A stretch of DNA of 64,000 nucleotides from Hirschia baltica ATCC 49814. Lineage in GTDB: Bacteria; Pseudomonadota; Alphaproteobacteria; Caulobacterales; Hyphomonadaceae. Below the pieces are notes generated by a model. That model was not told the origin of the DNA. It worked only from the letters and a program-made list of their open reading frames with translations, and did not search any database. Position numbers and translations under genes: made by a program. The stretch's first letter is position 1. Every line of letters begins with the position of its first letter. The stretch is taken from positions 1,612,001 to 1,676,000 of the forward strand of contig NC_012982.1 of assembly GCF_000023785.1 (NCBI RefSeq), read 5' to 3'. This document shows positions 837 to 8,951 of this stretch, in pieces.

Positions 837-2210
837 TTGCCAGATACATTCTTGCTACAGCTGCGTCTTGTGGCCATGGCCTATAGATTTTTGAAACTTG
901 GGAATTACACTTTGACCGCTAGTATAAAGAAAATTGTAGAGTTTGAATTAGCTGGAATAGCTATCGTTCCTTTTGGAATAATGGCTATCTTAAGCGCTAT
1001 TTTTCTAATCTCTGGACATATTCAGGAAGCAGGTCTGCCTGGGGCGTTTGCCCTTATGTGGTCTGTCGGATTTGTTCTATATTCGATTGGTGAAAAATTA
1101 CCGATCTGGAAAGAGTATGCGGGAGGTGGACTCATTATGGCATTCCTTGGGAGTGCTGTGTTGGTACATTTTGGTGTTATACCGAAAGAAGAAAGCGAGT
1201 TTCTGACAGCATCGGTTATCGACAACCGCTTTTTGTATCTCCTGCTAGTTGGGTTGGTTGCGGGAACGATACTTTCAGTTGATCGCAAATCTTTGATGCG
1301 CTCTGTTGTCGGATTGGTGCCTGTAATATTTTTTGCAATTTCTGGTGCGGTTGTACTTGGCGTTCTTATCGGATGGTTTTTTCAAGTAGAGCCAGCACGA
1401 ATAGTGACCCATTATGTGCTTCCAATTATGGGGGGAGGTAATGGAGCAGGGGCGATACCAATGTCAGAAATTTACGCTGACGCTACTGGAGAAAATGGTG
1501 CAAAATATTATGGTTTTGCAATTTCTGTTTTAACCATTGCAAACATGGTCGCTATATTGATGGCATCTGTACTGAACAAAATCGGACAAGCATTTCCAGC
1601 TTGGACAGGAAACGGCAAATTAAGTGACGATGAAAATTTTCAAGAGTTAGCTCCCGCAACAGAAAACTCCGAACCAACCAAAGAAATGAGTACACTCAGT
1701 GCATTGTTTTTTACAGTGGCAATGTTGTTACTTGCGATGTTGTTATATTCTTTGTTTCCACAAGTTCACCTTTTTGCTTGGGCAGTTTTGATTTTTGTTT
1801 TCTTGAATGTCTCGGATTTACTGCCTAAGTCTCTGGTTTCCGCGTTGGCGCTAGTGAATGAATGGGGGATGAGAACATTCATTGTCTTGGTATTGGTTGC
1901 AGTTGGTTTGATGACAGACCTAAATGATCTTATTACTGCCTTTAGTATTCAAAATGTCGTTATTTCAGCAGCAATAGTTATAGGTGCCAGCCTTGGCGCA
2001 GGGCTAAGTGCAAGATTATTTAAGTTCTTCCCCATCGAAGCCGCGATCGCTGCAGGGCTGTGTATGGCTAACAGAGGTGGGAGTGGAGATCTAGAAGTGT
2101 TGGGTGCATCTAAAAGAATGGCTTTGTATCCATTTGCGCAAATTTCATCACGCATTGGAGGCGGGATAGTTCTATTTTTGGCCGGATATCTTTTTAGTAT
2201 TCTACTTTAG
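837..2210 (+). CDS. 2-hydroxycarboxylate transporter family (2HCT, CitS/MaeN-like) symporter
   Basis: A polytopic inner-membrane protein of 457 residues in the 2HCT family, whose members exchange or co-transport citrate, malate and related 2-hydroxycarboxylates with Na+ or H+. The two diagnostic reentrant-loop motifs are present: GGGNGAGAIPMSEIY near residues 199-213 and CMANRGGSGDLEVLG near 409-423. The latter is followed by KRMALYPFAQISSRIGG, whose first Arg aligns with the substrate-binding arginine of CitS as I recall it. About 11 hydrophobic segments are visible. The start is uncertain: TTG at 837 has only a weak AAAGA upstream, and ATG at 876 is also in frame and fits the family N-terminus. 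The actual substrate cannot be read; the adjacent LeuCD-like and hydroxyacid dehydrogenase genes suggest a branched or substituted hydroxydicarboxylate. Confidence 0.88.
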   Translation: MPDTFLLQLRLVAMAYRFLKLGNYTLTASIKKIVEFELAGIAIVPFGIMAILSAIFLISGHIQEAGLPGAFALMWSVGFVLYSIGEKLPIWKEYAGGGLIMAFLGSAVLVHFGVIPKEESEFLTASVIDNRFLYLLLVGLVAGTILSVDRKSLMRSVVGLVPVIFFAISGAVVLGVLIGWFFQVEPARIVTHYVLPIMGGGNGAGAIPMSEIYADATGENGAKYYGFAISVLTIANMVAILMASVLNKIGQAFPAWTGNGKLSDDENFQELAPATENSEPTKEMSTLSALFFTVAMLLLAMLLYSLFPQVHLFAWAVLIFVFLNVSDLLPKSLVSALALVNEWGMRTFIVLVLVAVGLMTDLNDLITAFSIQNVVISAAIVIGASLGAGLSARLFKFFPIEAAIAAGLCMANRGGSGDLEVLGASKRMALYPFAQISSRIGGGIVLFLAGYLFSILL

Positions 2211-2369: not shown

Positions 2370-3248
2370 ATGAATTCAGAATGGTTGTTGGATTTTCTGG
2401 AGCTTACTGATGCAGGTAGCTTTTCTCGAGCGGCACAGCGCAGGTATATTACACAATCAGCCTTCAGTAGGCGTATTCGATCACTTGAAGAATGGGTCGG
2501 TACTTCTCTTGTAAATCGCGATACTCATACCATGAAATTGACGCCTTCTGGCGAGAGTTTCACAATTGTAGCTGAGCAGGTGATTAGGTCTCTTGAAGCA
2601 GGTCGCAATGAAGCATGTGCAATTGAACGTGCTTCAATTGAAACGGTTCACTTTGCTGCAACGCATGCTCTATCTTTGACGTTTTTTCCAACTTGGTTGC
2701 GGAAGTTAGAAAAGGATGAGCCAGCTTCGACTACTTTGAAACTTACTGCAGACCATATGTTAGCGTGTGAAAAACTTATGCAAGAAGGTAGGTCTCAATT
2801 TTTACTCTGCCATCATCATGAAAATTCTAATCTTCAATTGGGGCAAGGGTTTAAATCAGTAAAATTAGGTGAGGACATTTTATTGCCTGTCGTTTCTTTG
2901 AAATTGAAAGAAACTGTAGAACCCCGGAATTTGCCGCTGTTGAGCTTTTCTCCTGAATCTGGATTGGGAAAAATACTTTCGTGCGTCCTTGATGATAATA
3001 TCGACACACCTAGCAAACAGCCTGTTTTTACATCTCATTTGGCGAGTGTGTTGACATCAATGGCCAGACAGGGGCGAGGAATTGCTTGGACTGTCCTAAG
3101 TATTGTGGCTGATGATCTTGAAACTGGTTCGTTGGTTCGCGCATCTGACCAACAAATACCTGTCGAAATACGATTGTGGAGAGCTGCAGCTAGGCAATCG
3201 CCAGCGGCCGAAAGGCTATGGAGCAAGGTTTTAAAATCTTTGCAATAG
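2370..3248 (+). CDS. LysR-family transcriptional regulator
   Basis: A regulator of 292 residues with an N-terminal winged helix-turn-helix at about residues 5-63 (SFSRAAQRRYITQSAFSRRI) and a C-terminal ligand-binding domain. Its wording resembles the HypT/YjiE subgroup of LysR proteins (AFSRRIRSLE, a THALSLTFFP segment at the domain junction, GIAW near residue 230, PAAERLW near the C-terminus). The ATG at 2370 is supported by a strong AAGGAGGT ribosome-binding site 6-7 bases upstream. It sits between the transporter and the convergent dehydrogenase/leuDC operon and probably controls both; this is inferred from position. Residue identities do not reveal the ligand. Confidence 0.88.
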   Translation: MNSEWLLDFLELTDAGSFSRAAQRRYITQSAFSRRIRSLEEWVGTSLVNRDTHTMKLTPSGESFTIVAEQVIRSLEAGRNEACAIERASIETVHFAATHALSLTFFPTWLRKLEKDEPASTTLKLTADHMLACEKLMQEGRSQFLLCHHHENSNLQLGQGFKSVKLGEDILLPVVSLKLKETVEPRNLPLLSFSPESGLGKILSCVLDDNIDTPSKQPVFTSHLASVLTSMARQGRGIAWTVLSIVADDLETGSLVRASDQQIPVEIRLWRAAARQSPAAERLWSKVLKSLQ

Positions 3249-3289: not shown

Positions 3290-4293
3290 TTACAGTTTGC
3301 GTCCATCAACAATCACACATTGTTTGGGAGGTTTGCGATTTAATATGACATCAACTGCGCATTTAGCTGCGATCATATTGGTGCGTTGAAGGGCTTCTTC
3401 CGTCGACGCACCAGCATGTGGTGCTGCGATAACATTGTGAAGCGATAAAAGGGAGTTTGTTATAGCTTTTTTGGATGGGTCATTTTCACTTTCGTACACG
3501 TCCAAACCAGCACCTCTGATTTGATTATTTTCTAACGCGTGAAGCAATGCACTATCATCAACCAATCCACCTCGACCAGTATTTATTAATATTGCTGATG
3601 ATTTCATTTTTCCCAATGCTTCTGCATCAATCAAATGATGAGTTTCGCGTGTTAATGGGGCATGAATCGATATGTAATCAGACTCGCGTAAGATGGTATC
3701 AAGATCAGATTGCAATAAATTGTAATCCTCGATGTCTTGTGTCGTTAGCCTTGGTGAAGATACTAATATTTGTGCCTCAAAACCTTTGAGCCTTTGGGCA
3801 AGACTGCGACCTGTTCGTCCAAAACCAATAATCCCCACTTTTTTTTGGAAAAGCTCCGTTCCTACAAGTATGCCCCATTCACCTTTGATCATTGATTTTT
3901 GCGCTTCCTGAAATCTACGTCCAACAGAAATCATCATGCCGATGACTTGGTCGGCGACAGAGGCATCATTTCCACCTGCTGCAATGGTGACTACTTTTCC
4001 CAATTCTTTTGCAGCTATAGTATCCACTTTTTCATAACCTACACCGCGTCGCGATATAATAGCTAAATCAGGGAGGCCCTCGAGCACGTCTCTCGTAATG
4101 TGAACGTGACCAACAATCCAACCTCCGGCACCTTCAAGTAAACTGTGCAGATCTATTTTATCAAGTTGTGCTTCTGTTTTACCCACTGGTAGCTTCGGCA
4201 AAACTACCTCTATCTTGTGTGTCTGCAGATATTCTATTGCTGCTTTGTCGAAAAACTTTTGCGTGATGACGACCTTTTTTTGGGGGGGGTCAT
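3290..4293 (-). CDS. D-2-hydroxyacid dehydrogenase, reading frame broken by a homopolymer tract at codons 2-6
   Basis: The body encodes a D-isomer-specific 2-hydroxyacid dehydrogenase (SerA/hydroxypyruvate reductase type) that interconverts a 2-hydroxy and a 2-oxo acid with NAD(P). Visible features are the nucleotide-binding motif GIIGFGRTGRSLAQ, the Arg-containing INTGRGGLVDD segment, GAGLDVYESE and the catalytic-His segment APHAGAST. In the plain frame the only available start is TTG at 4201, which would remove the first beta-strand of the fold. The natural start is ATG at 4293, with AAGGA eight bases upstream and 20 bp after the leuD stop. From that ATG the frame runs through C8 then A7 and stops at 4234-4236. 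One extra base in that run, or a -1 slip on the A-run, joins it to the body and restores the expected N-terminus (KKVVITQKFFDKAAIEYL), about 334 residues. It may be a sequencing error, a phase-variable switch or slippage. Confidence 0.8.
4275..4289 (-). repeat. Homopolymer run (C8 then A7 on the coding strand) at the start of the dehydrogenase gene
   Basis: On the plus strand this is T7 followed by G8. On the coding strand ATG-A is followed by eight C and seven A. Runs of this length are prone to replication slippage and to sequencing error, and the A-run followed by G resembles a slippery site. It is exactly where the frame of the dehydrogenase gene is lost. Confidence 0.9.
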
Positions 4294-4313
4294 ATTAAAT
4301 TCCTTCGAGTGTT

Positions 4314-4919
4314 TCAGGTCAGCCAGCTAAATTTAGTAAGGTATTTTGCTTGAAAGGCATCAATTTCATGTTTTCGCTCAAGCGTCATATCTATGGCGTC
4401 TAACCCATTCAAAAGCATGTGTTTGCGTTTGTTGCTGATATCGAACTTGATCGTCGTATCTGGTGTTTCGATTGTCTGACTTTTCAAGTCTATTGTGAGT
4501 TGCCGACCTGAGTTTGCGCAATGCATCAATGTTTTCACATTGGCTTCGCTTATTTCGATAGCAAGCAAACCATTTCTAGCGCAATTGTCGAAGAATATGC
4601 CAGCAAATGATGAGGCGAAAATGGCCTTTATTCCAAATTGTTGTAGTCCCCAGACAGCGTGCTCTCTGCTTGATCCGCAGCCGAAATTTGGACCTGCAGC
4701 TATGAATTTAGAATTCAACCATTGCTTTTTGTTCAATATAAAATCTGGATTAATTTTCCCGAATTTGTCATGGCGCAAGTTATAGAAAACACCTTCAGCT
4801 AAACCTTCTCTGTCTATTCCTTTGAGAAAGGTTTTAGGCATAATGGTATCTGTATCAATATTTTGGGCAGGCATAGGAGCCACTATGCCTGTATGCTGGA
4901 GGAATGATTCAAAAGGCAT
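4314..4919 (-). CDS. LeuD-like small subunit of an aconitase-family hydro-lyase
   Basis: A protein of 201 residues, the usual length for the 3-isopropylmalate dehydratase small subunit, the swivel domain of a two-subunit aconitase-superfamily enzyme. The substrate-recognition motif GPNFGCGSSREHA (about residues 76-88) and the N-terminal NIDTDTIMPKTFL segment are present. Its ATG overlaps the last 11 bases of the leuC-like gene, implying translational coupling. Together the subunits would dehydrate and rehydrate a hydroxy-dicarboxylate and so move its hydroxyl group. Leucine biosynthesis is possible, but there is no leuA or leuB here. The neighbouring 2HCT transporter, LysR and hydroxyacid dehydrogenase point instead to a catabolic paralogue (citramalate, dimethylmalate or a similar substrate); this is inference. 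Confidence 0.87.
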   Translation of the reverse strand: MPFESFLQHTGIVAPMPAQNIDTDTIMPKTFLKGIDREGLAEGVFYNLRHDKFGKINPDFILNKKQWLNSKFIAAGPNFGCGSSREHAVWGLQQFGIKAIFASSFAGIFFDNCARNGLLAIEISEANVKTLMHCANSGRQLTIDLKSQTIETPDTTIKFDISNKRKHMLLNGLDAIDMTLERKHEIDAFQAKYLTKFSWLT

Positions 4920-6339
4920 GTGTAGGCTGCATATTTCTTACATCACATAGGTGACCTGAGATGGCGGCGGCGGCGACCATTTCAGGACTCATTAAATGTG
5001 TTCGGCTATCTACACCTTGTCTTCCTTCAAAATTTCTATTTGTACTGGGGGCACACCGTTTCCCGGGGGCAATGATGTCGTCATTCATTGCTAGACACAT
5101 TGAGCAGCCAGATTGTCGCCATTCAAATCCAGCATCAATAAAGATTTTATCTATGCCTTCTTGTTCGGCAATTTGTCGAACTTGGCTGGACCCAGGCACG
5201 ACCATTGCGCGTATTTGTGGGGCAATTTTCCTGCCTTTTAGAACATTGGCAGCAGCACGAAGGTCTTCAATTCGTGCATTCGTACAGGACCCGATAAAAG
5301 CAAAATCAATAGTAAGATCAGTCAACTTCGTGCCTGGCTTAAGCCCCATATATTTTAAGGCGCGTTCCATAGCTTTTTGGTTTGCCGGATCTTTACTTTT
5401 TTGCGGGTTAGGGATGAAACCCGTAATGGGGACAGCCTGATCTGGGCTAGTTCCCCAAGTAACCATTGGTTCGATGTTTCTAATGTTTATATCTATAGTT
5501 TTTTCGAATATCGCATCAGGTGAACTTTGAAGAGTTTGCCAATAAAGTATTGCCTCATCCATTTGCTCGTTTTGTGGCGCGCGAGTTTTACCTTTTAGGT
5601 ATTCATATACTTTATGATCTGGTGCTATTAATGCGACTCTTGCTCCGCACTCAACTGCCATGTTGCAGACGGTCATACGGCCTTCTATGGACATTTTCGT
5701 GATAGCAGGGCCTGTGAATTCGACAGCATAACCCCGCGCTCCGTCCGCTCCTATATTGCGGACTATAGACATGATAATATCTTTGGCGGATATTCCTGCT
5801 GGTGGCTCCCCACTTATGTTTATTTTCATGTTCAAAAGTTTTTGGTACGGCAGAGTTTGAGTTGCCAATAAGTGCTCAATATCAGACGTACCTATACCAA
5901 ACCCAATGGAACCGAAGGCTCCATATGTTGTCGTGTGGCTATCGCCTGCAGCAATAATTAGACCGGGTAAAACTAAACCAAGTTCTGGCATGACTACATG
6001 TTCAATACCCTGATTTTTATGATAAATATCAAATAACTCAATATTGAAGTCAGAGCAATTTTTTTCAAAATAAGACATTTGAATATTCTCTGATTGTAAA
6101 GAGGATGTCGTCGTTCTTTTAGGGTGGGTGGAGTTAACATGATCGATAACGGCGAGTGCTGCTTTAGGTCGATATACACTTCGGCTCGCGTTTCTTATTC
6201 CAGTGAAGGCCTGCGGGCTTGTGTATTCGTTCAGGACCGTACGATCAATATACAGTAAAATTTCCTGATCTGACGCTACTGGCTTACATACAGTGTGAAT
6301 ATCGATTAGTTTATCATATAATGTGCTTGGCAATGCCAT
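4909..6339 (-). CDS. LeuC-like large subunit of an aconitase-family hydro-lyase ([4Fe-4S])
   Basis: A protein of 476 residues matching the length and layout of the 3-isopropylmalate dehydratase large subunit. The three cluster-binding cysteines are visible: Cys352 in IGSCTNARIEDLR, and Cys412 and Cys415 in GCSMCLAMN. Also present are AAGDSHTTTYGAFG, VTWGTSPDQAVPITG and NRNFEGRQGVDSRTHL. Some stretches depart from ordinary LeuC: HVVMPELGLVLPGLIIAAGDSH where LeuC usually has a GPEQG...PG type sequence, and APSTNRNF where ASTSNRNF is common. This favours a paralogue with a different substrate. It is the first gene of a three-gene minus-strand operon (leuC-like, leuD-like, dehydrogenase). ATG at 6339 has only a weak ribosome-binding site. 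Confidence 0.87.
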   Translation of the reverse strand: MALPSTLYDKLIDIHTVCKPVASDQEILLYIDRTVLNEYTSPQAFTGIRNASRSVYRPKAALAVIDHVNSTHPKRTTTSSLQSENIQMSYFEKNCSDFNIELFDIYHKNQGIEHVVMPELGLVLPGLIIAAGDSHTTTYGAFGSIGFGIGTSDIEHLLATQTLPYQKLLNMKINISGEPPAGISAKDIIMSIVRNIGADGARGYAVEFTGPAITKMSIEGRMTVCNMAVECGARVALIAPDHKVYEYLKGKTRAPQNEQMDEAILYWQTLQSSPDAIFEKTIDINIRNIEPMVTWGTSPDQAVPITGFIPNPQKSKDPANQKAMERALKYMGLKPGTKLTDLTIDFAFIGSCTNARIEDLRAAANVLKGRKIAPQIRAMVVPGSSQVRQIAEQEGIDKIFIDAGFEWRQSGCSMCLAMNDDIIAPGKRCAPSTNRNFEGRQGVDSRTHLMSPEMVAAAAISGHLCDVRNMQPTHAF

Positions 6340-7598: not shown

Positions 7599-8951
7599 TC
7601 AGACCTTGATTGTAAGTCCGTCTGCAAGAGTGTTCTGTGTGGCACGTGCTGCCGGCCATAAAGACATAACTGCCGATAGCAATGTTACAATTATGATGGT
7701 TGCAAATTCCAACACACCGATCTGCATACCAATTAACGTCAATCCAAATTGAGCACCGATTATTGGGGCCACAAAGAATAAAATGGAATGAATGAGGGCT
7801 ACGCCTAAAACAGCTCCACAAATAGCCAAGAGCATTGCTTCAGTTATTATCAATGCAAATATATGGACTGGACCAGCACCAAGAGCGCGCAGAATTGCCA
7901 TTTCTCTGCGACGTTCTTTGAGGCTTGTAAATATTGTAATCAAGATAGTCGCTAGCCCTACAATGACAACGAAAAATGATATTGCGCTTAGCGCTTTTTC
8001 CGCTGAACCGACAATGCTCCAAAGAGAGGAGAGTGTCATTCCTGGAATAATGGAGAGAAGTGCTTCATTTGGGTATGTATTGACTTCGCGATTGAACCTG
8101 AGGACAGCAGCACGCGATTTTAACCCGATAAATGCTGCATTTATTGTATCTGGTTCAACATGTTTGTGTTCTACTTCATGCTCATGCTCATGCTCATGCT
8201 CATGCTCATGCTCATGCTCATGCTCATGCTCATGCTCATGCTCAGTGTGGTGCTCATCGCGGCTTTCTACGTCATCATCATGGGTAGCGTGAGCTGAAGC
8301 AGGCGTTGAGTGCATCGTCTCTATTGCTTCAAGGCTCACATGAATTGTTTTATCTACCGGTGTTCCTGTGGGCGCTAAAATCCCTACGACCGTGAAGGCG
8401 TGTTCATCATGATTATGGAATGAAACATCACCTATCCCATGCGAAAGAATGATTTTTTTACCCAGACCATAATCCAGACGACGTGCAATATCTGACCCTA
8501 TGACAACATCAAGTTTGTGTGGGTTGAAAAGTTCACCAGTTTTGAGTGCTAGGTTCTGGCTGTTGCCATATTTGTAGTGCTCAAAATAATCTAAAGATGT
8601 GCCCAGCACACGGTAGCCGCGGTGACTATCGCCAAGAGATATGGGAATTGACCATGCGACATCAAGCCTATGGGCAATAGCTTCATATGAATCCCAAGAC
8701 ATTGGACTTGTGGCATCACCAATTCTGAAAACAGAAAACAGCAAGAGATTGATTGGCCCTGTTCTGCCGCCAACTATAGCGTCGACTCCAGATATTGTGT
8801 TTTCAAAACTAGCACGAGCTGAATGTCTCGATTTTTCGACCCCTACAAAAAGTGCAACGCTCAATGAGACCGCTATGATTGTGAGTAATGCCGTTGTTTT
8901 TCGGGCTAGAATGCTTTTCCAAGCGAGATTTAGAATGGTTGTGCGGTTCAT
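7599..8951 (-). CDS. MacB/FtsX-type ABC permease with a Glu-His repeat periplasmic loop
   Basis: A protein of 450 residues with one N-terminal membrane segment (about 18-38), a large extracytoplasmic region, and three C-terminal membrane segments from about residue 315 onward, the usual FtsX/LolE/MacB layout. In the periplasmic part, residues about 236-259 are an almost uninterrupted Glu-His dipeptide run, flanked by more His, Asp and Glu (HATHDDDVESRDEHHTEH before; EVEHKHVEP after). Such tracts bind Zn2+ and similar ions in many transporters. ATG at 8951 overlaps the ATPase stop by 4 bp, so the two are co-translated. The overall role is probably zinc-linked transport or mobilisation, given the ZIP gene and Zur-like site nearby; direction and cargo are unproven. 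Confidence 0.88.
   Translation of the reverse strand: MNRTTILNLAWKSILARKTTALLTIIAVSLSVALFVGVEKSRHSARASFENTISGVDAIVGGRTGPINLLLFSVFRIGDATSPMSWDSYEAIAHRLDVAWSIPISLGDSHRGYRVLGTSLDYFEHYKYGNSQNLALKTGELFNPHKLDVVIGSDIARRLDYGLGKKIILSHGIGDVSFHNHDEHAFTVVGILAPTGTPVDKTIHVSLEAIETMHSTPASAHATHDDDVESRDEHHTEHEHEHEHEHEHEHEHEHEHEHEVEHKHVEPDTINAAFIGLKSRAAVLRFNREVNTYPNEALLSIIPGMTLSSLWSIVGSAEKALSAISFFVVIVGLATILITIFTSLKERRREMAILRALGAGPVHIFALIITEAMLLAICGAVLGVALIHSILFFVAPIIGAQFGLTLIGMQIGVLEFATIIIVTLLSAVMSLWPAARATQNTLADGLTIKV
8176..8244 (-). repeat. Hexanucleotide microsatellite, about 11.5 copies, coding (Glu-His)n
   Basis: The plus-strand unit CTCATG is repeated essentially without error from 8176 to 8244. It is read on the minus strand as alternating GAG and CAT codons. 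Because the unit is 6 bp, copy-number changes add or remove Glu-His pairs without shifting the frame. Confidence 0.97.

Follow-up and report, generated by a model that had tools for sequence, protein, structure and literature searches.

A one-base shortfall in a compound homopolymer very probably explains the broken start of a leuCD-linked dehydrogenase gene in Hirschia baltica

Why does a 2-hydroxyacid dehydrogenase gene of Hirschia baltica ATCC 49814 lose its reading frame a few bases after its start codon? This strain (IFAM 1418T) is a free-living bacterium of the Baltic Sea, assigned to biosafety level 1 (PMC3368421). The gene lies on the minus strand of a 64,000-nucleotide stretch of contig NC_012982.1 (chromosome 1612001-1676000; hereafter the window), and its frame breaks at a run of eight Cs followed directly by seven As (C8A7). 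The initial annotation had offered a phase-variable switch, transcriptional or translational slippage, and an assembly error as possible causes. We find that the break is very probably an accidental shortfall of one base, arising by miscall or by mutation, and not a device. Among the causes listed, we rate assembly error highest. The frameshift is most likely an ordinary homopolymer shortfall.

The minus strand across the start reads CGAAGGAATTTAAT-ATG-A-C8-A7-GG, and immediately 5' of the ATG it reads AAGGA-ATTTAAT. The leuD-like gene ends 20 nt ahead of this ATG (4293). In its own frame, the ATG encodes only the 19-codon product MTPPKKRSSSRKSFSTKQQ*. The dehydrogenase itself is encoded in the -1 frame, which is open from 4294 to 3290 (334 codons from stop to stop) and, starting from 4294, has no ATG, GTG, or TTG ahead of the TTG at 4201. 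The start codon, the AAGGA, both runs, and the early stop are thus as first described, the rest of the protein does continue intact in another frame, and the gene is real. The proposed geometry also holds: the break falls within C8A7, and the frame is restored by a one-base gain or by a -1 slip on the last As of the tract. The tract is unique in our sample of the genome (944 kb, taken as stretches, including 800 kb of chromosome and 80 kb of plasmid), where no second adjacent pair of runs of at least six bases was found. C6A6 occurs twice in the genome, and the computed expectation for C7A6 is 0.01 per window.

Table 1. Features at the dehydrogenase locus (window positions).
Feature	Position	Strand	Basis
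CitS-like carboxylate symporter; directly after the dehydrogenase in Parvibaculum	837..2210	+	
LysR-type regulator, neighbour; near the operon in some relatives	2370..3248	+	
Dehydrogenase ORF, open part, 303 aa from TTG	3290..4201	-	PF02826 and PF00389; relatives 58-72% identical
Remainder of dehydrogenase N-terminus (KVVITQKFFD...), same frame, beta1/alpha1/beta2, lacking a start codon	4202..4274	-	Alignment, PF00389, model
ATG start and zero-frame reading, 19 codons, TAG at 4236-4234	4234..4293	-	Sequence, translation
Compound homopolymer, C8 (4289-4282) and A7 (4281-4275); joining the frames needs one more base	4275..4289	-	
Shine-Dalgarno-like AAGGA, 7 nt from ATG 4293	4301..4305	-	Sequence
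LeuD-like small subunit, next operon gene upstream	4314..4919	-	NCBIfam TIGR00171 / NF002458
LeuC-like large subunit	4909..6339	-	NCBIfam TIGR00170 / NF009116

The open frame belongs to the D-isomer-specific 2-hydroxyacid dehydrogenases. It matches both PF02826 (185.7 bits; gathering threshold 25.1) and PF00389 (68.6 bits; threshold 24.6), and the closest solved structure in a fold search is a phosphoglycerate dehydrogenase (1wwk, 36% identity). The protein differs from this broader group in its linkage to leuC-leuD-like genes, an arrangement seen in Alphaproteobacteria. It also scores under the cut-off of every named NCBIfam enzyme model. Scanned without its first 31 residues, it reaches 228 for PGDH (curated cut-off 454), 191 for GhrB (492), and 182 for glyoxylate reductase (455). 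The PF00389 match begins at profile position 1, directly past the C8A7 run. A structure model, used for N-terminal secondary structure only (pTM 0.70; Foldseek rmsd ~14 Å; domain orientation uncertain), places a strand at residues 7-10, a helix at 17-25, and a strand at 29-31, corresponding to beta1, alpha1, and beta2. The catalytic domain is complete only when the two frames are joined, as beta1 lies upstream of the TTG. Alignment and model thus agree with the initial annotation that joining the frames yields the expected N-terminal beta-strand.

Comparison with relatives from Hyphomonas, Parvibaculum, Emcibacter, and other Alphaproteobacteria (58-72% identity) points to what is missing. The gene is unbroken in all 16 distinct relatives, and in each the ATG stands exactly six codons ahead of the valines in a K/R-VVV(I)TQ motif. 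One additional C or A in the H. baltica run gives a leader of identical length, which indicates that the deposited gene is one base short in its compound homopolymer. Right past the run the sequence encodes KVVITQKFFD, whose alignment to the N-termini of 13 relatives needs no gaps; seven residues of this region are invariant (V8, V9, T11, Q12, F14, F15, and D16). Because of this, the joined frames are no chance overlap of ORFs. The C8A7 tract is absent from the first 33 nt of the relatives' genes, where runs are mostly of two to six bases, reach seven at most, and are all in frame. Together with the uniform start spacing, these in-frame variable runs show that the ancestral gene was continuous; among the sequences compared, only H. 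baltica has the long tract. Two other genomes of the genus Hirschia yielded no copy of the dehydrogenase gene at E <= 1e-60.

The surrounding operon is conserved as well. In all 12 of the larger loci recovered from relatives, the leuC-like gene, the leuD-like gene, and the dehydrogenase follow one another in that order, as in H. baltica, and some have a CitS-like symporter, a LysR regulator, or an AtuA-like gene close by. None of the neighbouring genes in H. baltica is broken, among them an AtuA-like gene that lies ~3 kb outside the window. The dehydrogenase is best explained as an ordinary member of this leuC-leuD-dehydrogenase operon, with a product of ~333 aa.

Its sequence also bears the marks of normal constraint. 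There are no stop codons in the open frame, and H. baltica departs privately from otherwise invariant columns at four positions, compared with 0-10 for the relatives. Kimura distances to the relatives average 1.21 times the relatives' mean distance among themselves for the dehydrogenase, compared with 1.41 times for LeuC and 1.29 times for LeuD. The gene thus diverges no faster than its operon partners and shows no sign of decay, so that any inactivation is either recent or not real. Constraint was normal until very recently, or is still present.

Our confidence in an accidental shortfall rests on the uniform start spacing in 16 relatives, the undecayed frame, the intact neighbours, and the unique compound run. 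The tract encodes a leader of six residues that separates the ATG from the first beta-strand, and the deposited sequence is one base short there. For annotation, this means that an apparently broken or truncated gene very probably encodes a complete enzyme, or went out of frame only recently.

The cause that we consider best placed, at a little under even chances, is a run-length undercall of the 2009 454-based assembly that survived Illumina polishing; the miscall itself is inferred. If so, the gene in living cells would simply be intact. The assembly combined 34x 454 Titanium with 116.6x Illumina GAii data for error correction (PMC3368421), and deletion errors of 454 sequencing cluster in homopolymers (PMC3116506). 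The H. baltica break resembles such errors in being a single-base shortfall at a long homopolymer in an otherwise intact gene of a 454-based assembly. It differs in that this genome was polished with Illumina reads at more than 100x, has a stated error of less than 1 in 100,000 (PMC3368421), and keeps most of its other long C-runs in frame.

Our census of runs bears on both sides of this reading. The genome has 21 distinct C8/G8-or-longer runs, of which 15 lie in continuing open frames, four lie outside clear coding sequence, and two break a frame. Both breaks (the dehydrogenase C8 and a C9 at chromosome 2919880) are one base short, as a miscall would predict. Against this, 15 of the 17 genic runs are in frame, C9 and C10 runs among them. 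A codon-model scan of shorter and longer runs with coding sequence on either side found the same frame kept in 128 of 132, and flagged three frame switches at T7 or A7; for at least one of these, a separate start precedes the run. Long runs are therefore mostly correct in this assembly, which weakens the miscall reading, though it still stands: C8A7 is the hardest run in the sample. The strain is also a member of the MBARC-26 mock community, for which public Illumina (HiSeq, 2x150) and PacBio data exist (PMC5037974). If the run is miscalled, a benchmark reference carries a small flaw.

Two observations from the scan concern other genes. The second C-run break (chromosome 2919880-2919888; L060:1501-1509, outside the window) separates an apparent signal-peptide start, MIFRKIVLSCLFSVLPLSGTTAQCETPEEV, from a serine carboxypeptidase-like (PF00450) ORF that lies one base out of its frame; relatives of this S10 peptidase are only ~32% identical, too distant for a homology comparison across the break. 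A stop was also flagged inside the paralogue L003.

The main competitor to a miscall is a real deletion that arose recently by replication slippage in the ATCC 49814 culture used for sequencing and that would have inactivated the dehydrogenase. Such a loss of function would be ordinary and, in so mutable a tract, revertible, and rich medium may not have selected against it. Neighbouring C8 and A7 runs are intrinsically prone to slip, the lack of decay in the rest of the gene fits a recent event, and most long runs in the polished assembly are in frame. Such a deletion fits the same data, but by sequence it is the same as a miscall, single-base loss is typical of 454 sequencing, and the second C-run break has the same sign. 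We regard a real deletion as quite possible, and place the miscall somewhat ahead of it; this ranking is a matter of judgement and not of computed figures.

Recoding, in which RNA polymerase slips on C8 or A7, or the ribosome slips by -1 on the A-run, so that some full-length product is made, is far less probable. The geometry would allow it: a ribosome that slips by -1 on the final AAA reads AAG followed by GTC, and one A or C gained in the mRNA likewise brings the frames together. A precedent is found in "pseudo pseudogenes", genes whose frame is interrupted at a homopolymer but could be regained by slippage, such as Citrobacter tssM, which is rescued by slippage on A11 (PMC4256274). Their runs, however, are A/T runs of at least nine, and bacterial transcription slippage has a threshold near A9, with even A8 called non-slippery (PMC1088944). 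The H. baltica tract has A7 alongside C8, and falls under this threshold, which concerns the A/T part of the tract only. Nor does it have the form of a programmed -1 frameshift site, which needs a zero-frame X XXY YYZ heptamer and a stimulator. The zero frame reads CCC AAA AAA AGG, out of that phase, and the RNA downstream shows no notable fold (z = -1.06). The site is also unconserved among relatives. The suggestion of transcriptional or translational slippage thus finds no support here.

Slightly less probable still is phase variation, in which C8A7 would be a selected, reversible ON/OFF switch for a metabolic gene. Contingency loci are often located right after the start codon, and the H. 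baltica tract resembles poly-C/poly-G loci of this kind in that its run of eight Cs adjoins the start codon, where a one-base change would flip the gene. However, it has no known length variants, and phase-variable loci are recognized by run lengths that vary among cells or strains and by conserved or enriched hypermutable tracts. Here, the tract is unconserved among the relatives compared, and in the 944-kb census A/T runs of at least eight are depleted while C/G runs of at least eight are near first-order expectation. This lack of a long-run excess argues against a switch, since genomes that use tract switches are expected to show one. Cytoplasmic metabolic enzymes such as this one are also unusual targets of phase variation. 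The on/off switch first proposed is thus unsupported, with the tract absent from relatives and long runs not enriched. Overall, it is highly improbable that C8A7 is a real reversible switch or a leaky slippage site giving cell-to-cell control of a leuCD-linked carboxylate pathway step. A proven switch would be an unusual thing to find in an operon of this kind, but no evidence here points to one.

It is likewise very unlikely that the functional protein is the 303-aa product of TTG 4201: this codon has an SD-like GAGG five bases upstream, but translation from it would leave out beta1, alpha1, and beta2 of the catalytic domain (as modelled) and the seven residues invariant in all relatives, 16 of 16 distinct relatives begin ~31 codons earlier, and the preserved N-terminal codons would be left without a function.

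Several further genes merit description. An AtuA-family gene (PF07287; L112:9617-11053, ~3-4.4 kb ahead of the window start) is 74% identical to a gene that several relatives carry close to their leuC-leuD-dehydrogenase operon, a linkage that hints at a larger catabolic cluster under conservation. Counting the copy in the window, H. baltica has four LeuC-like paralogues; the other three (chromosome 954897-956282, 1585248-1586621, and 1591482-1592885) are 44-48% identical to it. The similarity of a 156-aa ORF (L112:8526-8996) to a TonB-dependent receptor is confined to an internal stretch of the receptor, and the ORF is possibly a gene remnant. Within the window, the product of a minus-strand gene (7599-8951) resembles a permease and contains a long His-Glu repeat (HEHEHE...) that may form a metal-binding loop.
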